A stretch of 64,000 nucleotides of DNA from Flavihumibacter rivuli (GTDB lineage: Bacteria; Bacteroidota; Bacteroidia; Chitinophagales; Chitinophagaceae), in contig NZ_CP092334.1 of assembly GCF_018595685.2 (NCBI RefSeq), positions 2,942,001-3,006,000 of the forward strand, in the 5' to 3' direction. This document shows, piece after piece, positions 1 to 13,653 of the stretch. The translations under genes were made by a program, and so were the position numbers. The notes beneath the pieces were generated by a model that was not told the DNA's origin, did not search any database, and saw nothing but the letters and a program-made list of their open reading frames with translations. Each line of letters opens with the position of its first letter. Within the stretch, counting starts at the first letter, position 1.

Positions 1-777
1 ATTCTGATGAATCAAATCGATAATCTCGACAGTGGGGTTGATATAGAGAAATCCACACCGTTTGCATTTTAACCAATCTGTAGACCCATGTAACTTGAAA
101 ATCTTAAATAGGGGCTTAGAAGGTCTATTATAGATGATATCTTTTTCATCTACAGGATCCCGCCAGGAAACACCATAGTCAATTTCCCGGTCAGCATTAT
201 AGGTATCATCGTAATTCAGCAATTCCCACTCCAATGAAACATCATAATTGGTAGAAACCAGGGAAACAAAATGGCTTCCCCCTTTATTTTCCTTTCTGAT
301 CCATTTCACAAAATCATCCATCTTCTTGGGTAGCACATACTTTCTTGAACGATTTATAGAGTCAATGATTGCCCATTCAAATATTGTTTTCAGATTTGAC
401 ATATCCCACCGGTCATTTAACTGTTTGGGAATCTGCAGGAGACCGGGTATTTCATTATTCCAATCAACAATGCAGTGATTGGTATTGATCAATTGGTCAA
501 CCATTGACAATAGCTCAGTAACCATTGGTAATTCTTTGACCAAGACATCCATCGGGACATTCTTACCAAAATAATCTTTGATTCCGGGTGACAGCGATAC
601 CAACAACTGCTTTAGCATTTCCCGATACTTGTGCGCAACCCTTCTATTCCTTTCAATATTGTTAAATAAGGTTCCGCTGTTGATCTTATTTACAATGATG
701 GGTAGCAAATCCCTGGTCAGCGGATACCCGAAGGTTGCAGATACACCAGCCCCTGTAAAAACAACCGTTTTTTTCAT
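1..777 (-). CDS. SIR2-like NAD-binding domain protein (C-terminus outside window)
   Basis: An open frame runs without a stop from 777 to the window edge, giving 259 residues of a longer protein. The N-terminus carries the Rossmann motif VVFTGAGVS of the SIR2 fold. Further on come VSTNYD and LHGSTDW, matching the TxNxD and catalytic HG positions of SIR2-like enzymes, followed by CKRCG, which may start a zinc ribbon. Family members deacylate proteins or, in many bacterial defence proteins, hydrolyse NAD+. The start at 777 (MKKTVVF) sits a few residues before the motif, as is usual; an in-frame ATG at 801 is possible. The gene is transcribed away from the 994-6991 cluster, with about 215 bases between them. 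Family assignment is confident; an NADase or defence role is inference. Confidence 0.82.
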   Translation of the reverse strand, partial: MKKTVVFTGAGVSATFGYPLTRDLLPIIVNKINSGTLFNNIERNRRVAHKYREMLKQLLVSLSPGIKDYFGKNVPMDVLVKELPMVTELLSMVDQLINTNHCIVDWNNEIPGLLQIPKQLNDRWDMSNLKTIFEWAIIDSINRSRKYVLPKKMDDFVKWIRKENKGGSHFVSLVSTNYDVSLEWELLNYDDTYNADREIDYGVSWRDPVDEKDIIYNRPSKPLFKIFKLHGSTDWLKCKRCGFLYINPTVEIIDLIHQN

Positions 778-993
778 ACTTGATAGTTTATGATTCAGCA
801 TTTAGAAAAGGAATCTAAGTTTTTCAGCGCCTTTTGAATAGGGGAATTTTCCCGCCCTGCTAATGGGAAAAAGACCCCTACTTACAGATCTTTTTTCAAC
901 TAGTTTGCTATGGTTATTCAAAGCTTACCCACAATCCTACCTTGCAATTTCCATCGACCATTTAAAAGACATTAACCTTCTAAACCATTAGTT

Positions 994-1791
994 ATGGCAT
1001 TAAAACTAGTTGACGACAGTTCTACCTATTGGGGGATCATGGTTAACCGCCAGCCAAAAGCAGGTAAACAAAAAATGATAACCGGTGAAATTCCGACAGC
1101 CGGTGAATTAACTGGGATAGAATTAAGAATGCTACCACCCTTTATCAAAGAGAATGGTACCACACCGGTATTTCCCTTTCCTGGTAACGCAAAGCTATAC
1201 TGCCTTGTAATGGTGGTTAGCGATGCCAACAACCAACTTATCGGTGGAATTGATCTGCAAGGATTTCCAAGGATCGGAGACAAAGAACACCTTCCCATCA
1301 ACAAAACATTATTTTACTGGGAACCCTCCACTGACAACAAAACAGCACCCAGGCAAATTCATATGGCTTGTTCCATCATTAAATGCAAGCAGTCTTTGCG
1401 GGACGTAGCTAAAATATTAACATCGGTAAAAAGCGATGAGGACTATAAGGGAGTAGTGAAAACACTTGAAAAGCTGGCCAAAAATGCCAGTGGTGCTACC
1501 CTATTCCTTGATGCACTTAGTCAGCTAGGATCATTGGTAGGCAAATACCTGAAGGATGTGGAAGACAAGCCCCTTGGCGCCATTGTTCAGAGTTATACTG
1601 CACTTAGGGGTGATTTTGACAACAAGGGGGTTCAAAGAAGGCAGTATATGACACCTAGGGTAATGTTTGATTTTGAACTGGTTGTACGGGACAAAACGGC
1701 AACTCCCGTCAAGTCCATAAGGGGTGGTAAGAAGAGCCAAGCCCTAGTTCATGAAGAGGTGATTGTTGATCTGCAACCATTTAAAAGCTGA
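994..1791 (+). CDS. Conserved-looking protein of unknown function, first gene of accessory cluster
   Basis: This 265-residue protein has no signal peptide or membrane segment and I do not recognise its family. The N-terminal half (about 1-130) is rich in short hydrophobic strands and looks like a beta-sandwich. The middle (about 130-190) is amphipathic-helical with SLRDVAKIL and LEKLAKNASG. The C-terminal part contains YLKDVEDKPLGAIVQSYTAL and then more strands. It is followed after 63 bases by the patatin gene and probably begins a five-gene transcription unit. Coding is supported by length, by the tight array of same-strand genes and by base usage like theirs. A membrane-binding or adaptor role beside a lipase is only a guess. 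Confidence 0.75.
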   Translation: MALKLVDDSSTYWGIMVNRQPKAGKQKMITGEIPTAGELTGIELRMLPPFIKENGTTPVFPFPGNAKLYCLVMVVSDANNQLIGGIDLQGFPRIGDKEHLPINKTLFYWEPSTDNKTAPRQIHMACSIIKCKQSLRDVAKILTSVKSDEDYKGVVKTLEKLAKNASGATLFLDALSQLGSLVGKYLKDVEDKPLGAIVQSYTALRGDFDNKGVQRRQYMTPRVMFDFELVVRDKTATPVKSIRGGKKSQALVHEEVIVDLQPFKS

Positions 1792-1854
1792 TCCAGGTAA
1801 ATTTCACAATGGACTTCTGCAGAAAAATTAATCCTTAGAGAATAGAATCTAGCC

Positions 1855-3150
1855 ATGGACAAAAGCATCATCAGGGGACTGGCCCTATCGGGTGGAGGGT
1901 ATCGGGCAGCCGCCTATCATTTAGGAACCCTGCGAAAACTGCAGGAAATGGGTAAGCTGCAAGGCATAGAAAAAATGTCAACCATTTCCGGAGGTAGCAT
2001 TATCGGAGCATTCTACTGCCTCAATGAGGACAACTATCCGGACTTCGAGAACAAAATGTACACCATTCTCACCAGTAAGGATGTGATCCGCTCCGTCTTT
2101 TTATCATGGCCCTTCCTACGGCTCATTATTGTGGCACTCATTATACTTGCCCTAGCCGTATGGACCTTCATAAAAGTACATACCCTTCTATTTCCAGTGA
2201 TTTTAGGCCTGGCCATATGGTATTTGATCAGTAATCAATTCACCATTTTTCCTGTAAGCAAAATAATTGAAGGGGTATATGATGAATTCCTGTATGGGAA
2301 TAAAACCCTGAAAGACCTGAGTGAAAAGCGGCCACTATTAGCGATCGGTGCAACCAATCTACAAACGGCCAGACCTTTTGTATTCTCCAAGCCATATATG
2401 GGAGAAAGCTATTACACCAGGGAAATGCAAGCGAGGTTTCTTCCAGACAGTTTCCCCATATCCAGGGCAGTAATGGCGTCCAGTTGCGTTCCTTTTGCCT
2501 TCACCCCTGTTTCCATTGATAAAACCTTCATAGAGAACGGAAAAGAGCTAGGCTCTTCTGCGCCCATCATTGTTGATGGAGGGGTTTTTGACAACCAGGG
2601 TTCCCATAAGTTAACCCACCCCAGAAGCCTGTTTAGGGCAGATATCATAGTCATCAGTGATGCTGGCAACAAACTACCATTTGAAGACCTCTATAAAAAT
2701 ACGATCAGTCTACTCATAAGAACATCCAATGTATTCATGGAAAGGATCAAACGCTTCCAGCTAAAAGAGGATGTGTATGATCAACAACAATCTGGCATAA
2801 GCGAGATTGGGTATATTTCATTAGGGTGGGATCTGGAAAGATGTATAGAAGGCTTCCTTGATAATTTAGAAAACAAGATCATCAATCCCAGGGTAATTGC
2901 GGCACATGAAATCCCTTTAGAATGGATAGATCAAATAAAAAAGTACAGGAACCTAATAAAGGATCATATCAGTAACAGGGTTGATCTCGAAGGCATCAGG
3001 AATCAATATCCCACACAGGAACAAGTAAAGTTGGCAAGAAATGTTACAACAAATCTCAAAAAGCTGACGCATGCAGAAGTAGAAGCCCTTAGCGCACATG
3101 CAGCCGCACTTACAGAACTACAGGTAAAGCTATATTGTCCAAGTTTATAA
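1855..3150 (+). CDS. Patatin-like phospholipase with internal transmembrane hairpin
   Basis: This is a patatin-family acyl hydrolase with a Ser-Asp dyad (431 residues). The oxyanion-hole loop LSGGGYRAAAYH is at residues 11-22, the nucleophile motif STISGGS has Ser45, and the dyad motif DGGVFDNQG has Asp241. Between them, at about residues 80-126, are two strongly hydrophobic helices separated by a short polar turn, so the catalytic domain appears split by a membrane hairpin. Patatins cleave acyl chains from phospholipids, and several anti-phage systems use them to damage the membrane. The stop is followed after only 10 bases by the peptidase gene, so the two are very likely co-transcribed. 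Lipase family is confident; substrate and role are unknown. Confidence 0.88.
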   Translation: MDKSIIRGLALSGGGYRAAAYHLGTLRKLQEMGKLQGIEKMSTISGGSIIGAFYCLNEDNYPDFENKMYTILTSKDVIRSVFLSWPFLRLIIVALIILALAVWTFIKVHTLLFPVILGLAIWYLISNQFTIFPVSKIIEGVYDEFLYGNKTLKDLSEKRPLLAIGATNLQTARPFVFSKPYMGESYYTREMQARFLPDSFPISRAVMASSCVPFAFTPVSIDKTFIENGKELGSSAPIIVDGGVFDNQGSHKLTHPRSLFRADIIVISDAGNKLPFEDLYKNTISLLIRTSNVFMERIKRFQLKEDVYDQQQSGISEIGYISLGWDLERCIEGFLDNLENKIINPRVIAAHEIPLEWIDQIKKYRNLIKDHISNRVDLEGIRNQYPTQEQVKLARNVTTNLKKLTHAEVEALSAHAAALTELQVKLYCPSL

Positions 3151-3160
3151 AACCAGCGCC

Positions 3161-5080
3161 ATGAGTAAACCTTCCTTCAGGATGTTGAGAGGCTATTCCC
3201 TGGACCCAGGATTCTCCATCCAACTAAATACAGCCCAAATCAATGAGATCACCTATGCTATAAGGTGGGAAGAGATTGGGAAAGGTCCAGTAGGCGAATA
3301 TTTCGAAGTGATAGATATTGATCCCGCCAGTAATTGCTGGTATGAGCCAGTGGATCTGGACTCCATTGAGGTATTGGCCCAAAATGGCTTACCGCCTAGT
3401 GAAGGTAATCCCAAGTTTCATCAGCAATTCGTGTATACGATATCCATGAAAACCCTGGAGCACTTTGAACATAGTTTAGGAAGAAAAATACTTTGGCGAC
3501 CTAGAAATTATAATCCGAAGTTAATACATGGAGGAAAAGGCGCAGAATTTGTTCGCCGGCTTAGAATTTATCCCCATGCATTCAGAGGCGCTAATGCCTA
3601 CTATGACCCTGAAAAAAAAGCCATCCTATTCGGATATTTTGAAGCTCCAAAGGACAGTTATTATAATGGATTACCAGGTGGCGCCATATTTGCCTGTCTC
3701 TCGCCTGATATAGTAGCCCATGAGCTAACCCATGCCCTGCTGGATTCCATTCATCCACGTTTCATAGAGGACACTAATCCAGATGTAGGAGGTTTTCATG
3801 AAGGATTTGCAGACATTGTGGCCTTGCTCCAAAGGTTTACCATTACGAACCTAGTTGAACATCAAATAGCAGAAACCAAAGGAAACCTCAGTGAATTCTC
3901 CTACTTGGGAGAGCTCGCCACGCAATTTGGCAATGCATTGGACAATAGCAGGGGAGCCTTAAGAGGTGCTATCGGGGCGATCAATCCTAAAACCAACAAA
4001 TGGGAAAGATTTAAGCCAGATCCGCTGAAATACAAAAAATCCACGGAACCACATGACCGAGGAGCCATATTAGTAGCCACTATTTTTGATGCCTTTCTAA
4101 GGCTTTATCATTGGCAAACTGCTGACCTGCTTAGAATAGCCAGTAACGGAACAGGTGTTCTGCAAAAGGGTGCCATTCATCCCGACCTCGTAAAACGACT
4201 TGCTGCAGAAGCTTGCTCTATTGCCAAACATTTGCTCTATATCTGCATTAGGGCTTTGGATTATTGTCCACCGGTTGACATTACCTACGGTGATTACTTG
4301 AGGGCACTCATTACCGCAGACCTGGACAGCTCGCCACAAGATAAAAATGGCTATAGGCTAGCCTTGATCGAGGCATTCAAAGCTTGGGGAATCTATCCGG
4401 ATAGGGTAAATACCCTTTCAGTAGAAAGTCTCAAATGGGCTAAATCAGGTTTTAGGTTAGGAGAGAAAGACAATGATATGTGGCGCGAAATTGTAAATAC
4501 TCTAAAACCCCAAATAAGAGAGCTGGTTGACATCGGAATCAAGGAACCAAGTGATCGGGAACTTCTATATACAAAAACCTTAGAGATACAGGCCGCATTT
4601 TATCGGCTACTTATGCAAGGCAGTTGGACAAAAGATCCCTTAGAATGGGGGAAAATCCTTCAAAACCATGGTCTTACCAATAAGACTCTTGAATTCATCT
4701 ATAACGATGAGGTTATCAAGAGCAATGAGGTCCCGAAGATCCAGGTCCACAAAGTAAGACCAGCCTATCGGGTAGGAAGAGACGGTACAATTCAAGAACA
4801 GGTATTGATTACACTGGTTCAAACCTTTAGGATAACAACGGGTTCTTTATCGGGCGAGATCTTCAGGGGTGGTTGTACTGTAGTCATCAATATGTCCAAA
4901 AACTATGAAATAGAATACGTTATTCTCAAAAATATTGAAAGCAGCTACCGATTTGCGAAACAGATGAATTATCAGACAGGCAATTCCGAAGACTTCAGCT
5001 TTGCGTCAGATGACACCTATGCACAAGAACAACAGTCGCCAAAAATAAACTTCGAGAAACTACACTTCCACTCACACTAA
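3161..5080 (+). CDS. Zincin (M4-like gluzincin) metallopeptidase domain protein
   Basis: The protein has 639 residues and no signal peptide. A zinc-binding HELTH motif (His187, Glu188, His191) is followed by FHEGFAD, whose Glu214 lies at the spacing of the third zinc ligand in thermolysin-type gluzincins. The surrounding helix DIVAHELTHALLD closely resembles the thermolysin active-site helix. The C-terminal half (about 430-639) is not recognised and ends in strand-rich sequence. With no export signal it should act in the cytosol, unlike typical secreted M4 enzymes. It lies 10 bases after the patatin gene and 11 before the metallo-beta-lactamase gene. Metallopeptidase chemistry is well supported; the target is unknown, but processing of a cluster partner is a reasonable hypothesis. 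Confidence 0.85.
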   Translation: MSKPSFRMLRGYSLDPGFSIQLNTAQINEITYAIRWEEIGKGPVGEYFEVIDIDPASNCWYEPVDLDSIEVLAQNGLPPSEGNPKFHQQFVYTISMKTLEHFEHSLGRKILWRPRNYNPKLIHGGKGAEFVRRLRIYPHAFRGANAYYDPEKKAILFGYFEAPKDSYYNGLPGGAIFACLSPDIVAHELTHALLDSIHPRFIEDTNPDVGGFHEGFADIVALLQRFTITNLVEHQIAETKGNLSEFSYLGELATQFGNALDNSRGALRGAIGAINPKTNKWERFKPDPLKYKKSTEPHDRGAILVATIFDAFLRLYHWQTADLLRIASNGTGVLQKGAIHPDLVKRLAAEACSIAKHLLYICIRALDYCPPVDITYGDYLRALITADLDSSPQDKNGYRLALIEAFKAWGIYPDRVNTLSVESLKWAKSGFRLGEKDNDMWREIVNTLKPQIRELVDIGIKEPSDRELLYTKTLEIQAAFYRLLMQGSWTKDPLEWGKILQNHGLTNKTLEFIYNDEVIKSNEVPKIQVHKVRPAYRVGRDGTIQEQVLITLVQTFRITTGSLSGEIFRGGCTVVINMSKNYEIEYVILKNIESSYRFAKQMNYQTGNSEDFSFASDDTYAQEQQSPKINFEKLHFHSH

Positions 5081-5091
5081 AAGCTATTACT

Positions 5092-6483
5092 ATGTCCCAG
5101 AAACTTAGTGTATCCATAAGAATGTACAGGGTCGGAGAACTTGGGGATTGCTTTTATCTGCAATTTAAGGAAGGACAAACACAAAGCAGGGTATTGATCG
5201 ATTGTGGATCTTTTAGAAATTCAACGGCATCTAAAGAAAGATTACAAAAGATTGCTAGTCATATTACAGAAGAACTGAATGGCGAAAAGATTGATGTGGT
5301 AGTTGGTACCCATCAGCACAATGACCACTTGTCAGGCTTTGTGCATGCTAAAGAAATATTTGAGGGCAACATTGACCAGGTATGGCTATCCTGGTTAGAT
5401 GATCCAAAGGATGCAGCAGCCAGGAAAATAAACAAGGAACATAAAAAAATAGTACTGGGTTTGTTGGAAGTGGTAAGCGAGTCGAAAAAGATCGGCAAAA
5501 GTAAGCAACTGAATATTGCCACAGAATTGCTTGACTTTTATGGCTTATTAGGGGCAGCCCCCGCAGTACCGGCCGAAGGCATAAAAGTATTGAAGGAAAT
5601 AGGTACAAAACCCGTTAAATATCTGGAACCCGGAGACAGGTTGATCTTACCCAATCTCAACAAGAATAGCGTCAATGTTTATGTCCTGGGACCACCCAGG
5701 AATCCAGACTTGCTGTATGATATAAGCGCAAGCAGTAAGGAAAGCTATGATCACCGGCTACAACTGGCAGAAGCAGGAACAAAGCAATTGCTATCCGCAG
5801 TCAAGAATAAAATAAAGGGAATCGACCAGCCGGAGGAATCTGACTTCCCCTTTAATAAAACCTATAAGCGGATAACAAGGGAAATAGACCCTAAAGTCAG
5901 GCAACTCTATAACAATGATCCCAGCAGGCAGATTGAAGATGATTGGCTGGAGCAAGCCAATCGATTAGCTATTTATATGGATACCTATACCAACAACAGC
6001 AGTCTCGTACTAGCATTTGAGCTTGTACAGTCAGGTAAGGTATTGCTGTTTGTTGGTGATGCCCAAACCGGGAACTGGCTATCATGGAAAGAAATAAAAT
6101 GGAAAGGGAAGAATGCCAAATTCAGTATCAATCAACTTCTTGAGAATACTGTATTGTATAAGGTTGGTCATCATGGAAGCCACAATGCCAGCCTTGTGGA
6201 GGCCATAGAGAAAATGTGTCATCCGGAATTGGTAGCCATGATTCCAGTGGATAGAACTGATGGCCATATCACCAAGCAAAACGGATGGCGAATGCCCGCA
6301 AAAAACTTACTGAATAAGCTTAAGGAAAAAACCAATAACAGGGTGATGGTGATGGATAAGAATGGATTTGAGGATGATTGTCAACCTACAAAAGGAAAGG
6401 GTAAATCTGGTTGGAAAATGGTAGAAGGAAAACCTAAAGTAGACAACACTAACAATTATGTAGAATATACTATATACACATAG
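5092..6483 (+). CDS. ComEC/Rec2-like metallo-beta-lactamase-fold hydrolase
   Basis: This 463-residue protein has the MBL metal-site motif GTHQHNDHLSG (His74, His76, Asp78, His79). Later ligands are FVGDAQ (Asp323) and VGHHGSHNAS (His360/361), the pattern of the ComEC-type MBL branch. There are no transmembrane segments, so it is a stand-alone soluble domain and not a DNA-uptake channel. Family members hydrolyse phosphodiesters or related bonds. An insertion of about 150 residues separates the first and last metal motifs. It follows the peptidase gene by 11 bases and is part of the same unit. Fold and metal site are confident; nuclease activity is inferred. Confidence 0.87.
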   Translation: MSQKLSVSIRMYRVGELGDCFYLQFKEGQTQSRVLIDCGSFRNSTASKERLQKIASHITEELNGEKIDVVVGTHQHNDHLSGFVHAKEIFEGNIDQVWLSWLDDPKDAAARKINKEHKKIVLGLLEVVSESKKIGKSKQLNIATELLDFYGLLGAAPAVPAEGIKVLKEIGTKPVKYLEPGDRLILPNLNKNSVNVYVLGPPRNPDLLYDISASSKESYDHRLQLAEAGTKQLLSAVKNKIKGIDQPEESDFPFNKTYKRITREIDPKVRQLYNNDPSRQIEDDWLEQANRLAIYMDTYTNNSSLVLAFELVQSGKVLLFVGDAQTGNWLSWKEIKWKGKNAKFSINQLLENTVLYKVGHHGSHNASLVEAIEKMCHPELVAMIPVDRTDGHITKQNGWRMPAKNLLNKLKEKTNNRVMVMDKNGFEDDCQPTKGKGKSGWKMVEGKPKVDNTNNYVEYTIYT

Positions 6484-6589
6484 ATGGAATAAAAACTCAG
6501 CTATAAATGGAAATGTAATTTTTACCTTATTCATAAATGGGAAAAATCATTCTATCTAAACTTTTTTTAAACCAAATAAACCTTTTCTA

Positions 6590-6991
6590 ATGAAAGAGAA
6601 TCCCCAACAAGGTCAATATGAGCATGCTTTTGAAAGTCAACTTAAGATTCATTACAACGAAAAAAAGCTCAAAGCCATCAATCAGTCAATTGATGCCGTT
6701 GTTAAGCAAATCAGCAACCTAACTGGTAAAAACCAGGAGGATGTTGGCAAAAACATTAAACGTATAGAAATTAAAGGAGGGCAATCCAAAAACGAGCAGA
6801 TTAATGATGTACTCGTAATATCAAGAGAAAAACCCAACCATCATGGACCACTCTCTCCTATCATTCCTCATGAATGTCATATCTCAGTGAAACTATGTAA
6901 CCCCTTACCATTTGGACCCCAAGTTTGTGTGGAAGTAGAGCTTCCCTGGCCTTGTCCGGATATTGTGTTTGAACCTGGGCCATTTGAGTAA
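6590..6991 (+). CDS. Small protein of unknown function at end of accessory cluster
   Basis: The product has 133 residues and no recognised domain. Its N-terminal half is charged and helical (about 20-60). The C-terminal third is proline- and cysteine-rich, with HECHISVKLCNPLPFGP and ELPWPCPD; four cysteines are spread through this part. It starts 106 bases after the metallo-beta-lactamase gene, a wider gap than between the upstream genes, so it could have its own promoter. It may be a structural or sensing partner of the cluster; no function can be assigned. Confidence 0.6.
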   Translation: MKENPQQGQYEHAFESQLKIHYNEKKLKAINQSIDAVVKQISNLTGKNQEDVGKNIKRIEIKGGQSKNEQINDVLVISREKPNHHGPLSPIIPHECHISVKLCNPLPFGPQVCVEVELPWPCPDIVFEPGPFE

Positions 6992-7283
6992 CAGTAGATT
7001 CCGGGCCAAATTGCTCCCTTTTATTGAGTTCAGTTTGGCCCTAACTATTTCCAGGATGATTTTTCAACTGTTACTCAGGCACATGTTGCCCCCCTTTTGT
7101 ATAGCTGAGCTACTGGTACAAGATCGGCGGTTTATTTCAGTTAGTAAATTCTCAGTTGAGAAGTAGAAAGAATATTAAAAGAAAATTGCGGATCAACTAT
7201 CCTTTCCTAACATTTGCCACACACATTAGCACACCCTTAACAGCCCACCCTCAACCAACTCCGGCTCCTCCTGTTAATTGGGC

Positions 7284-7694
7284 ATGAAAAAACTCATTCT
7301 ACTATTTAGCGTTATCCTTGCCTGCCAGTTCTCCCTCCAGGCGCAGGACAAGTCCTACCAGTTGTCCACCCATATCCTCGACATTTCTAGTGGCAGTCCG
7401 GCCACGGGTGTGACCATCCGGCTGGAACGCTATGACTCACTGGCGGGGTCATGGAAAAAGATCAGTGAGCAAAAGACTGATGGGAATGGACGCATCAAGG
7501 ACTTCCTTCCCACAGGGGGCAACAATGACGGCACTTATAAATTGGTCTTCCTGACCAGGGAATATTTCGAACGCAGGAAATGGGAGAGCTTCTATCCTTT
7601 TATCGAAGTGGTGTTCGCGATCCGGGGAAGCTCCCATTACCATGTTCCGCTGACACTTTCGCCGTTTGGGTATTCTACTTATAGGGGTAATTGA
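7284..7694 (+). CDS. uraH: 5-hydroxyisourate hydrolase, exported (transthyretin-like)
   Basis: This enzyme hydrolyses 5-hydroxyisourate to OHCU in urate breakdown. The 136-residue product starts with a signal peptide (MKKLILLFSVILACQFSLQAQ), so it acts in the periplasm or outside. The mature part shows the family signatures: LSTHILDISSG with the first active-site His, the RLERYD strand, HYHVPLTLSPFGY, and the C-terminal YSTYRGN close to the canonical YRGS. The ATG at 7284 is preferred over an in-frame TTG at 7278 because the signal peptide begins there. No other urate genes are nearby, so it may serve an isolated scavenging step. Confidence 0.93.
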   Translation: MKKLILLFSVILACQFSLQAQDKSYQLSTHILDISSGSPATGVTIRLERYDSLAGSWKKISEQKTDGNGRIKDFLPTGGNNDGTYKLVFLTREYFERRKWESFYPFIEVVFAIRGSSHYHVPLTLSPFGYSTYRGN

Positions 7695-8720: not shown

Positions 8721-9882
8721 ACACCATATTTGGGTGAATGGGCGTCAAGGCTTCCTCCTCCTGCTTATTCCTGATCCTGATCAGGTCGACCCGCAAGTCC
8801 ACCACAAATACCTCTTCTTCATCCCTGATCTGCAGCTCGTATTGCTGCTTGTATAAAAGATCAAGCCGTTGCCTTACGTTATTGATGCCAATACCGGACT
8901 GGTTCCGGTCGTTCGTCTTTAGCGGCGCTTTCCCATTCATCAACTTCATCACCAGCGTGGTATCCTTCAACTCAATGGTCAGGTTGATCCAGGGATTCTC
9001 CAATATGTTGCTGGTACCATGCTTAAAACAATTCTCGACAAATGGCAGCAACAACAAAGGGGCAATATAGATATCCCCCGGGGTTTCCGGCATCAACACA
9101 TGCACCTCCAGCCTGTTGCCATAGCGGATCTTTTCCAGGTTGATATATTCGTTCACCAACTGCAATTCCTGGCTTAAGGGTACCAATGGTTTTTGTCCCT
9201 CGTACAACACATACCGGAGGATATCCGAAAGCCCCATGATCATTTTAGAGCCTTTGGGGGATTCCACCTGTGTTTGCGAGTAAATATTGTTCAGTGTATT
9301 GAATAAAAAATGCGGATGCACCTGCGCGGTCAGCAGCCTCAGCTGCGATTCGGTATTCTCCTTTTGCAACTGCAGGTTACGGTGTTCCTTGTGATACCAG
9401 TGTTTGCCAAATTTCAGCATCAGCGCACTGGCGGCAATGGTAAAAGCTCCTTTGTTGGTAGCAATGACGGCCATAAAGAAGGATACCCCTTCGCTGCGTG
9501 GGGCAAGGGGCTGGTATTTGGCCGGTAATAAAAATGCCAGCAATTGCGGAAGTACCTTGCCCAAAAAATAGAGGTTCAGCGCTCCGCCGGCAAACCAGAG
9601 CACAATGATCCAGAATAGGCCCAGCAAGTATTTCTTCCTTAAAATGAACCTGGGCAGTACAAAGTAGAGTATTCCATAGGTCAGGGGAACCTGTGCCAAG
9701 ACCACAAAGAAACTTTCCGTACAGGTGTAGACAGGATTCTTGAAATAGGCCATTTCCGGATAGCCGAACGGGAAGGCGGCATGCGTGAGGGTAATGTAGG
9801 GATACCAAATTCCCCAAAACAGCAGGTGTTGTTTCAGGCGAACCTTCTTGTCCTCCGAAAAAATGAACTCCTGGATCGTCAT
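8713..9882 (-). CDS. LytS-type sensor histidine kinase
   Basis: The protein has 389 residues. The N-terminal region (about 1-160) carries roughly four hydrophobic segments, so sensing is in or at the membrane. The His_kinase motif VHPHFLFNTLNNI places phospho-His at 191. An ATPase domain follows, with the N box LPFVENCFKHG and glycine motif SGIGINNVRQRL. It passes phosphate to the overlapping LytTR regulator. The two genes overlap by 8 bases, the usual translationally coupled arrangement. The 254 bases upstream form a divergent promoter region shared with the gene at 10137. Confidence 0.94.
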   Translation of the reverse strand: MTIQEFIFSEDKKVRLKQHLLFWGIWYPYITLTHAAFPFGYPEMAYFKNPVYTCTESFFVVLAQVPLTYGILYFVLPRFILRKKYLLGLFWIIVLWFAGGALNLYFLGKVLPQLLAFLLPAKYQPLAPRSEGVSFFMAVIATNKGAFTIAASALMLKFGKHWYHKEHRNLQLQKENTESQLRLLTAQVHPHFLFNTLNNIYSQTQVESPKGSKMIMGLSDILRYVLYEGQKPLVPLSQELQLVNEYINLEKIRYGNRLEVHVLMPETPGDIYIAPLLLLPFVENCFKHGTSNILENPWINLTIELKDTTLVMKLMNGKAPLKTNDRNQSGIGINNVRQRLDLLYKQQYELQIRDEEEVFVVDLRVDLIRIRNKQEEEALTPIHPNMVYA

Positions 9883-10136
9883 AGGTAAGTTTCTCTTCTA
9901 AATTTAAATGATAAATCACGCATTCGGAAATATTGCGACCAGAAGTATCCAAAGCACGACCAATCAATTTTGTCGCAGACCAACAGTCGGGAATGGGATG
10001 AAATAGCTGATTTCCTACAATTCATCGTGCTTAAGCAGCGGTTTGCCTTAACCGTTCTGCCCTCAGCCGCATTTCATTAAAAATGCCCCTGCCGATGAGT
10101 AGTTTTAGGCTAACCATTAAACCTAATCAAAAAATT

Positions 10137-11501
10137 ATGAAAAAGATCAACTTGCCAAAGCTGGCCCTGATCGGGCTGCTTGCCATTTTTGCAGTCGCTA
10201 ACCAGGCATGCAGGAAAGGGGTGGCAGACGAAGTGGTGGTGCTTCCTGCCAAGAACCAGTCAAGTGCGCTTCCGCATACCAAACAATACCCGGCAGAGGT
10301 GGCCACTGAATGGTTCATGCTGCTAACAGAAATCTCCAGGACCAAGCCCTATTTTTCCCCTCAATCGCTCCGCATTTTTTCTTACAGCGGCATGGCGCTT
10401 TACGAATCGGTAGTACCGGGCATGCCTTCCTACCAAAGCATGTATCACTACTTTACGGGTAACACCATAATGGTAGACAAGAAAAAAGACTATTACTGGC
10501 CAGCCGCGGCCAATGCAGCCATTGCCAGGATAGCCTCGAAGATCATGGAGAACTACCCTGCTCCCAACCTATCCGCCGTGCAGGCTTTGGAATCCACTTT
10601 CAATACCCGCTTCCAGTCGGAGGCCAGTCCGGAACGACTACAGTTCTCCAGGGAATTCGGTAGCTACGTAGCGGACCTTATTTACGAGTGGAGCAAAACC
10701 GACGGCACACTGAATGCTGATGGAAGTCTAGCGGTCTGTCCGCCGTATACACCATTGGGCGGACCGGGCAATTGGGTGCCCACACCGCCATTCTTCCTCC
10801 CTGTAGCCGGCGCCTGCCAGGGCAATCTAAATACTTATATCCCGAATATTGCCAATACCGTTTTGGCCCCTCCGCCTCCCGCCTATTCCACCGATCCCGG
10901 ATCTGCTTTTTACCAGGCCGCTTTAGAAACCGCAACGTCCCGGAATAACATTAGCACCGACGAAACAAATCAATTCAACAATTGGAGGGACATCGCGCCG
11001 AATTACAACCCGCTTGCCCATATGCTGAGGATTTCTACACAGATCATGGTGAAGGAAGGACTGAACCTGGAAGACGCAGCCACCCTGTATGCCAAGCAAA
11101 CCATTGCCGGCTCCGATGCCATCATCGCTGTCTTCAAATCAAAGTTTCATTATTCACTGCTCAGGCCGGTTACCTATATCAGGAATGTACTGGGCCAGGG
11201 CACCTGGAGTTCGCTGCCCAATACGCCGCAAACACCTTCCTATCCCGATGAAATGTCTGCGACGGCTTCTTCAGTCGCCATCCTGGAAAATTATTTTGGC
11301 ACCAACTATTCCTTTGTGGACGACATCCATAAAGCTACCCATGGCGAGTGGACCTATACGTCCTTTGACCAGATGCTGGAAGACATTGTACAGGCCAGGG
11401 TCAGCGGCGGCACTACCTTCAGGTTTGCCGGGGATGCCGGTATCAACCAGGGACGACTGGTAGGCAATATGGTAGATCAATTGCCTTTTAAGAAATTATA
11501 A
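10137..11501 (+). CDS. Vanadium haloperoxidase/PAP2-like lipoprotein lacking catalytic histidines
   Basis: The 454-residue product starts at 10137 (MKKINLPKLAL...), giving a signal peptide ending near a Cys (NQAC) as in Bacteroidota lipoproteins; an upstream in-frame ATG at 10083 would bury it. The fold is that of the vanadium-dependent haloperoxidase/acid phosphatase superfamily: KFHYSLLRPVTYIR carries the Lys/Arg region. The next motif reads YPDEMSATAS where the family has YPSGHS, and the last reads GGTTFRF where it has GGxHF. Both catalytic histidines are therefore replaced (Met373, Thr427). It is probably a binding or structural pseudoenzyme at the cell surface. A terminator follows at 11562. 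Divergent from the LytS/LytTR pair. Confidence 0.83.
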   Translation: MKKINLPKLALIGLLAIFAVANQACRKGVADEVVVLPAKNQSSALPHTKQYPAEVATEWFMLLTEISRTKPYFSPQSLRIFSYSGMALYESVVPGMPSYQSMYHYFTGNTIMVDKKKDYYWPAAANAAIARIASKIMENYPAPNLSAVQALESTFNTRFQSEASPERLQFSREFGSYVADLIYEWSKTDGTLNADGSLAVCPPYTPLGGPGNWVPTPPFFLPVAGACQGNLNTYIPNIANTVLAPPPPAYSTDPGSAFYQAALETATSRNNISTDETNQFNNWRDIAPNYNPLAHMLRISTQIMVKEGLNLEDAATLYAKQTIAGSDAIIAVFKSKFHYSLLRPVTYIRNVLGQGTWSSLPNTPQTPSYPDEMSATASSVAILENYFGTNYSFVDDIHKATHGEWTYTSFDQMLEDIVQARVSGGTTFRFAGDAGINQGRLVGNMVDQLPFKKL

Positions 11502-13054: not shown

Positions 13055-13545
13055 ATTAGCTACGCCAGTGGGAAACCATCTTGCATAATCCCATCTACCT
13101 ATCATTGCCGGCATCGGGAGACCTAGTTGATCTATATTAAAATGTATTTCGTCCATTTCCATCAGGGTCCCCTCCGGGAGACCCTGCTGAGGTGAACCCA
13201 CATCTATTTTACCCCAGCGGGGTCTCCCGAAGGGGCTACCGTGTACCCACAACTATTTATACCCCCAGCGGGGTCTCCCGAAGGGGACCCCGATGTATAC
13301 AAGGCGAAATAGTTAATGCATCCAACAGCTAAGCTCATCTTCCAACTACCCGTTGGTCACCAAACACAACTGGGGCGAAGGGGGATAGTAAATCTTATCT
13401 ACTAATAGGAGTTCTCTGCTAAAGTCTCGGTGAATTTCTCTCCTACCATTCATCAGGGTCCCCTCCGGGAGACCCTGCTGAGGTGAAGATGTAGGTACTC
13501 GGTAGCAATTGCGGAAGACCCCGATGGAGTATATGATAGCCAGCG
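13055..13545. repeat. Cluster of hairpin-type intergenic repeats
   Basis: Four core hairpins lie at 13164-13185, 13219-13240 (degenerate), 13270-13291 and 13455-13476. The stretch 13270-13500 is a forward copy of the about 295-base unit repeated at 15912-16590. The small frames here are not preserved between copies. No gene is supported in 12880-13653. Confidence 0.85.
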
Positions 13546-13653
13546 CTGGGGCAGAAAGTAGCCGTATTTTGCCCTAATTTTATTTGACAGGGCTGTTTAT
13601 TACCATCCTAATGAGCTGCCTGTTTCACTCATACCGGGTTCATTAAAACGCAT

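Follow-up and report, generated by a model that had tools for sequence, protein, structure and literature searches.

A zincin peptidase and a ComEC-like metallo-β-lactamase protein encoded by a linked gene pair with variable partners in Flavihumibacter rivuli and other genomes

The first 7 kb of a 64-kb stretch of the Flavihumibacter rivuli genome (contig NZ_CP092334.1, positions 2,942,001 to 3,006,000; hereafter the window) raises the question of whether six neighbouring genes, encoding a SIR2-like protein, a protein of no recognised family (gene 1), a patatin-like phospholipase, a zincin-type peptidase, a metallo-β-lactamase-fold (MBL) hydrolase and a small protein, constitute one conflict system, as an original prediction made from the sequence had suggested. 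The window forms part of a single-contig, 4.30-Mb genome that is 99% complete. All six open reading frames (ORFs) were recovered as that prediction had listed them, with the SIR2-like gene on the minus strand and the other five on the plus strand at 994-6991. Recurrence of the set elsewhere, which it had proposed to check, held for the patatin, zincin and MBL genes, which are found in the same order in other genomes, but not for the full six-gene set. The zincin and MBL genes are the core of the locus, forming one linked two-gene module with optional partners. The features of this core are as follows.

3161..5080, plus strand: zincin, predicted thermolysin/fungalysin-like metallopeptidase with no signal segment and an unmatched C-terminal region; core gene
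3719..3733, plus strand: zincin HExxH motif (H187, E188, H191), with the third ligand E214 at 3800-3802 and H298 at 4052-4054
5092..6483, plus strand: MBL gene, encoding a ComEC-nuclease-like hydrolase; core gene
5311..5328, plus strand: MBL metal motif HxHxDH, residues 74-79
5344..5505, plus strand: candidate gating loop formed by the first MBL insertion against ComEC (residues about 85-138; insertion 1)
5707..5988, plus strand: candidate gating loop formed by the second MBL insertion against ComEC (residues about 206-299; insertion 2)

Searches of 147 genomes of the family retrieved the zincin (E≤1e-20) and the MBL protein (E≤1e-15) from the identical 10 genomes. A phylum-wide sample yielded the zincin in only 6 of 395 genomes, hence its distribution is patchy. 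Gene order was compared in 45 stretches, comprising L004-L011, 15 stretches from further genomes, 21 from plasmids and one contig from a phage record. The MBL gene came after the zincin gene in 44 of these, the exception (L011) being a stretch that stops inside the zincin. The two genes were adjacent in 7/7 genome stretches reaching past the zincin (L004-L010), including those from Verrucomicrobia and from a metagenome-assembled genome (MAG) labelled Euryarchaeota, and in all 15 stretches from further genomes. The pair was thereby seen in Bacteroidota, Verrucomicrobia, Proteobacteria, Deinococcota and the one Euryarchaeota-labelled MAG, with plasmid copies in Rhizobium, Agrobacterium, Methylorubrum, Paraburkholderia, Hymenobacter and Deinococcus, amongst others. 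At E≤0.001, at least 7,689 proteins matched the zincin and at least 4,714 the MBL protein. The distance matrices of the two proteins were correlated (r 0.81, n=40, P 1e-4; calculated without a control pair for comparison), the near-duplicates L032, L039, L092 and L093 and the split L080 having been dropped from the 45. In this last plasmid stretch, the MBL gene (8916-10180), which comes after an S8-zincin fusion, is broken into two reading frames. Carriage by phages was considered and set aside: a viral scan gave just distant relatives (25-34%, 19 loci), and of two matches to phage records, the closer was to a 9.5-kb faecal contig that carries no annotation.

The MBL fold was recognised by Pfam (1.8e-5), and comparison with a profile of 14 ComEC MBL domains from relatives gave a strong match (hhalign 99.4%, E 3.3e-21), whilst PADLOC matched the protein to defence MBL nuclease models, including that of LmuA at 2.5e-17. 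Judged by its sequence, the MBL protein is a relative of the ComEC nucleases. The original prediction had attached weight to the conservation of catalytic residues, and the metal ligands H74, H76, D78, H79, D323, H360 and H361 proved invariant in 48/48 sequences. Aligned with ComEC at the sequence level, the window protein carries two large insertions, at residues ~85-138 and ~206-299, along with a minor one around 327-337. HxHxDH and NNxS are spaced 221 residues apart in the window protein and 208-267 in 36 of 45 family members, the other nine not matching the pattern, against 73-75 in the only six ComEC proteins that matched it. Two Avs1a-like proteins (L094 and L095), found with the Avs1a profile at 107 and 95 bits where the curated cut-off is 420, have spacings of 144 and 127, with extra sequence in the same two intervals. 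By eye, the Avs1a-like gene of L095 is followed by a gene with trypsin-like and P-loop domains. Residues invariant among 48 close relatives were W98, L99, W101, D103 and P105 in insertion 1 and P253-F254 in insertion 2.

The predicted structure of the zincin matches M36 and M4 peptidases, and its fold is accordingly modelled as thermolysin/fungalysin-like. It resembles M36 (fungalysin) and M4 (thermolysin) peptidases in this predicted fold, in its HExxH and in the downstream Glu and His; the HExxH, the third ligand Glu and the second catalytic His were kept in 45/45 sequences. It differs from them in lacking a detected signal or hydrophobic segment, in an extra C-terminal region of about 200 residues, and in a sequence that falls below Pfam detection. 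No segment of either the zincin or the MBL protein exceeded the hydrophobicity threshold used. Pfam returned no match for the window zincin, the Peptidase_M4 cut-off not being reached, and NCBIfam gave no convincing family. The C-terminal region, making up the last third, had no clear fold match, which is not evidence of novelty. Five relatives of ~1000 amino acids (P0054, P0064, P0068, P0026 and P0047) carry two tandem zincin copies, of which P0068 passes PF01447. The first-copy HExxH is intact in P0068 and altered in P0054, P0064, P0026 and P0047, and this suggests a pseudo-protease domain in some. A zincin-MBL fusion had been entertained as the source of these long relatives; those read are tandem zincins.

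Pairs of an MBL pro-nuclease and a trypsin-like protease are described by Tuck et al. (Science 2025) in the main text of PMC12799240 for Hachiman (HamMAB) and AVAST type 1 (Avs1a/Avs1b), and also for Lamassu and defence-associated reverse transcriptases (DRT). According to that text, two insertions cover the active site of the pro-nuclease HamM, and the partner protease cuts each of them behind an isoleucine; the activation of Avs1a is alike, and in Canu (CanABC) a caspase activates the nuclease. As in HamMAB and Avs1, a ComEC-like MBL gene here adjoins a protease gene and is found beside different defence genes, and the two intervals between metal motifs that hold extra sequence in the MBL protein are those that hold it in the two Avs1a-like proteins. 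The differences from HamMAB and Avs1 reside in the protease, which is predicted to be thermolysin/fungalysin-like and not trypsin-like; its gene precedes the MBL gene, and in the window it stands alone, with no NTPase, HamA or LmuA joined to it. Canu is similar in that its protease gene lies upstream of the gated nuclease gene and its additional genes vary, but it has a caspase with Ig-like and TPR parts where a zincin is found here, and its description in the main text names no lipase. The words metalloprotease, patatin, phospholipase and subtilisin are likewise absent from the main text of PMC12799240. Of the hallmarks of a gated pair, we found ComEC homology with the metal ligands, two insertions and an adjacent protease gene, but neither a protease of the trypsin-like or caspase class nor a sensor, fused or in the operon; none (HamB, STAND, SMC or similar) was recognised among the six window genes. 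The locus therefore falls outside the known trypsin and caspase pairs, because its protease class differs and the sensor is missing. The zincin and MBL genes are a real and widespread unit, and by analogy with those pairs it likely works in the same manner.

The remaining genes of the cluster are the following.

1..801, minus strand: SIR2-like gene, 5' part; extends upstream of the window; outside the conserved unit
994..1791, plus strand: gene 1, optional; product predicted to be a beta-sandwich of C2-like fold into which three helices are inserted, possibly a membrane adaptor
1855..3150, plus strand: optional partner, a patatin-like phospholipase; SGGS nucleophile and DGG motifs present, one transmembrane segment predicted
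6590..6991, plus strand: small gene, 133 aa; outside the conserved unit

The patatin gene ends 10 bases before the zincin gene and the zincin gene 11 bases before the MBL gene, in agreement with the 10-11 bases first reported; gene 1 and the patatin gene are 63 bases apart. The gap between the SIR2-like gene and gene 1, previously put at about 215 bases, is 192 or 216 bases, depending on whether the first or second ATG is taken.

The patatin, confirmed by Pfam (5.2e-18), is an optional partner of the pair. Patatins were found in 15 of the 45 stretches, 14 of them through tblastn and that of L078 from its annotation and a Pfam match; in 10 of the 15 the gene lies immediately upstream in the same orientation. 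In the family sample they occur in 5/147 genomes (E≤1e-40), all with the pair: adjacent in four, elsewhere in one. The nucleophile motif SGGS, too, was kept, in 14 of the 16 patatins looked at; the exceptions were L030, read from an over-long ORF in which motifs are invalid, and L088, which did not show the motif; the L078 patatin was missed in this comparison. Transmembrane segments were predicted in the window patatin and six relatives (L006, L031, L035, L038, L039 and L071) and in none of nine others. Six of the 45 stretches encode a zincin with a subtilase joined to its N-terminus (the S8 domain was Pfam-confirmed in the five scanned), and no patatin was detected in these six. A Tle1-like lipase gene was present in 5/45 stretches (two Pfam-confirmed) and a phospholipase D (PLD) in 1/45. 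The zincin gene of L074 is preceded by that of an AAA_23 ATPase, with SMC_N just below cut-off, and the corresponding gene of L083 is 53% identical to it. These upstream ATPase genes recall the SMC subunit of Lamassu. The LmuA-LmuB arrangement of that system was not recovered in the window, where no LmuB-like gene was recognised among the six genes of the cluster. The patatin-type phospholipase is a candidate membrane-attacking arm like the patatin effectors of cyclic oligonucleotide-based anti-phage signalling systems (CBASS), but no cyclase (CD-NTase) gene was recognised in the cluster, and the CBASS genes on plasmids are separate neighbours. The predicted C2-like gene 1 beside a patatin is also reminiscent of eukaryotic cPLA2, which joins a C2 domain to a patatin-like lipase, with the difference that these are encoded by separate genes here.

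Gene 1 has a C2-like fold according to structure prediction. Neither it nor the small gene could be placed convincingly in a Pfam, PADLOC or NCBIfam family, there being weak sub-cut-off matches only. Gene 1 comes after the MBL gene in Chitinophaga barathri, and no match was obtained on plasmids using that copy as query. Its relatives lie beside other peptidase conflict genes: one is near a giant CHAT-LCAT-TPR-S protein (L069 4221-13738), another beside a Trypsin-TPR-S protein (L066 7680-10365). Their placement hints at a general protease-associated C2-like adaptor.

The complete SIR2 gene encodes 397 aa (L002 13608-14801, in the stretch upstream of the window), and the full protein reaches SIR2_2 at 5.7e-7. 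It was rejected as a member of the module, with matches in three of the 147 family genomes, adjacent to the pair only here, and no match in the 45 stretches at E≤1e-5. In SIR2-based systems (Thoeris and others) SIR2 is conserved with partner genes, which is not the case for the window SIR2. A convergent 520-aa gene with no Pfam or PADLOC match (L002 12003-13565), its end separated by 42 bases from that of the SIR2 gene, is a possible SIR2 partner. The small gene was considered as a conserved substrate peptide and likewise discarded, being present in just this one of the 147 genomes and unmatched in the 45 stretches at E≤1e-5. In L004, a Cys-rich ORF of 91 aa (13334-13609) shares 4 bases with the end of the MBL gene; by eye it is unlike the small gene of the window.

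Modelled on the Hachiman, AVAST and Canu pairs, a mechanism may be proposed in which the two MBL insertions would block the active site, the zincin would cut both of them out, and the freed nuclease would degrade DNA. We consider it an even prospect that the module is an abortive-infection switch of this kind, in which cleavage of two loops by the zincin turns the MBL protein into a DNA-cutting enzyme; that the pair is a thermolysin-type version of the Hachiman/AVAST protease-nuclease pair, and defensive, appears likely by the same analogy. Thermolysin-type proteases favour bulky hydrophobic residues, so the invariant P-F and W-L-x-W stretches are candidate cleavage sites, a speculative assignment. 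More tentatively, the trigger might be an infection cue that either neighbours or the C-terminal region of the zincin would sense, and the patatin could act as a second killing arm for which gene 1 would be the membrane adaptor. An extended and rather doubtful version is a two-armed suicide switch, whereby a thermolysin-type hub would unlock not only a gated DNase of ComEC type but also a membrane lipase of the same operon that the C2-like adaptor would steer, such that the infected cell loses DNA and membrane together, and the second arm would be swapped between patatin, Tle1-like lipase, phospholipase D and fused subtilase.

The original prediction had looked to neighbouring defence genes, and this was upheld in part, with CBASS and Hachiman genes beside some plasmid copies but no recurrent defence gene around the genome-contig copies. 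On pRle248a the patatin-zincin-MBL trio lies between a CBASS cyclase locus and the Hachiman genes HamA/HamB, on pAtH25_79a it is followed by HamA and a helicase gene, on pColt5.8d it is preceded by a CBASS cyclase and a SAVED endonuclease, and on pCMU01 a ThsA-like SIR2 gene follows the zincin-MBL pair. In L040, a Mom-like DNA-modification family gene (5952-6878; Pfam Mom, 3e-15) is located three genes upstream of the pair.

Several observations weigh against a defensive protease-nuclease pair. Named defence genes were near the pair in 5/8 plasmid stretches and present in 1/8 controls (Shedu) taken about half a plasmid away (one-sided Fisher P 0.06); the eight (L072, L073, L075, L076, L077, L084, L087 and L091) were hand-picked out of 22, and a named defence gene was defined after viewing the stretches, with toxin-antitoxin genes (L091; controls L133 and L135) counted in neither group. 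Genome-contig copies have mostly ordinary-looking neighbours by eye, and amongst 111 of their neighbouring ORFs from 15 stretches PADLOC gave scattered defence-like matches and no recurrent one. In that scan, which counts models and not genes and excluded 6/117 ORFs (patatins, gene 1 and two ORFs overlapping patatin), 65 models matched at E≤1e-10; each of the 25 shown occurred in one or two members (SoFic in two; E1-E2, capP and MzaA in one each). This lack of a recurrent defence neighbour is the main weakness of the defence reading. In addition, the window zincin matches no PADLOC model, the window operon has no sensor NTPase, unlike Hachiman and AVAST, and patatin, S8 fusion, Tle1-like lipase and PLD were all undetected in 19 of the 45 stretches. 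Five of the six family genomes with gene 1 (147 searched) have no zincin, the two occurring together only here.

Amongst other explanations, the lipase might be the real effector, with the zincin cleaving it into its active form and the MBL protein acting as a signal phosphodiesterase and not a DNase, so that the pair is its sensor or regulator. The pair is indeed constant as the lipase class varies (patatin 15/45, Tle1-like 5/45, PLD 1/45), the patatin, zincin and MBL genes of the window are spaced by 10-11 bases, and seven patatins have predicted transmembrane segments, against nine with none; yet all 19 stretches without a detected lipase or S8 partner keep both zincin and MBL genes, and searches with the MBL protein hit nuclease domains of ComEC type as well as models of defence MBL nucleases. 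We regard this reading as unlikely. We place somewhat lower the possibility of a cell-envelope or inter-bacterial competition module, whose associated lipases and wall hydrolases would attack either rivals or the cell that makes them, the zincin and MBL proteins being processing enzymes. Tle1-like, PLD and patatin lipase types also serve as secretion-system effectors, and the Pfam name of the Tle1-like family points to this use; furthermore, GH25, a cell wall hydrolase and a peptidoglycan-binding protein are encoded upstream in L080, L084 and L090, and a gene 1 relative adjoins an M15-type peptidase in L067. Against it stand the absence of hydrophobic segments above threshold from both core proteins and the annotated plasmid stretches (L082, L085 and L088 carry no annotation), which name one transfer gene, a conjugation-type TraH (L091), and no type VI gene.

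A peptide-maturation operon, in which the zincin would trim a small precursor and the MBL protein modify or release the product as in zincin/FxSxx peptide systems, is improbable. Zincin-linked precursor peptides do occur beside conflict systems, as passages of PMC7159879 describe, and after the MBL gene comes a small gene in the window and the different Cys-rich 91-aa ORF in L004. However, the small gene is unmatched in the 146 other family genomes and the 45 stretches, and by eye no shared small ORF was evident after the MBL gene in 44 stretches (up to two ORFs each). Least probable of all is the six-gene conflict system including SIR2. It draws on the close packing and divergent SIR2 gene in the window and on the ThsA-like SIR2 gene beyond the MBL gene in L075; the window SIR2, though, matches none of the 45 stretches, is adjacent to the pair in this genome only, follows a type I restriction locus and has its own convergent neighbour. 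That all six genes form one system was thus not sustained, the SIR2 and small genes being unlinked to the pair and gene 1 occurring with the zincin only in this genome.

The restriction locus (L002; HsdR and HsdS by PADLOC) includes an hsdM-like gene interrupted by IS21-type istA/istB (2976-3764, 4036-6333 and 6425-7273, spanning 2976-7273), with hsdS and hsdR downstream; the IS21 and hsdM were identified by eye. Within the window, the GC content is 41-43% across the first 8 kb and 46-55% in the remaining 2-kb steps. Right after the cluster, at 7278-7694, lies a Transthyretin/HIUase-family gene (Pfam 4e-37) with a signal-like N-terminus by eye, which probably marks the start of unrelated genes.

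No description of the zincin-MBL pair was found in the open-licence papers searched (titles, abstracts and some passages), though it may already be included in the supplement of Tuck et al. (fig. S2). Experiments on nuclease gating by proteolysis have been carried out with trypsin-like proteases and with a caspase, as given in the main text of PMC12799240. If the proposed switch is correct, a third, unrelated protease class is associated with the same nuclease type, and the gate would be a general lock that different proteases can open. The pair is found in five phylum-level groups, one of which is represented by the Euryarchaeota-labelled MAG, and the proposal predicts which two MBL loops would be cut, which residues would be needed, and that the lipase would be dispensable for DNA cutting.

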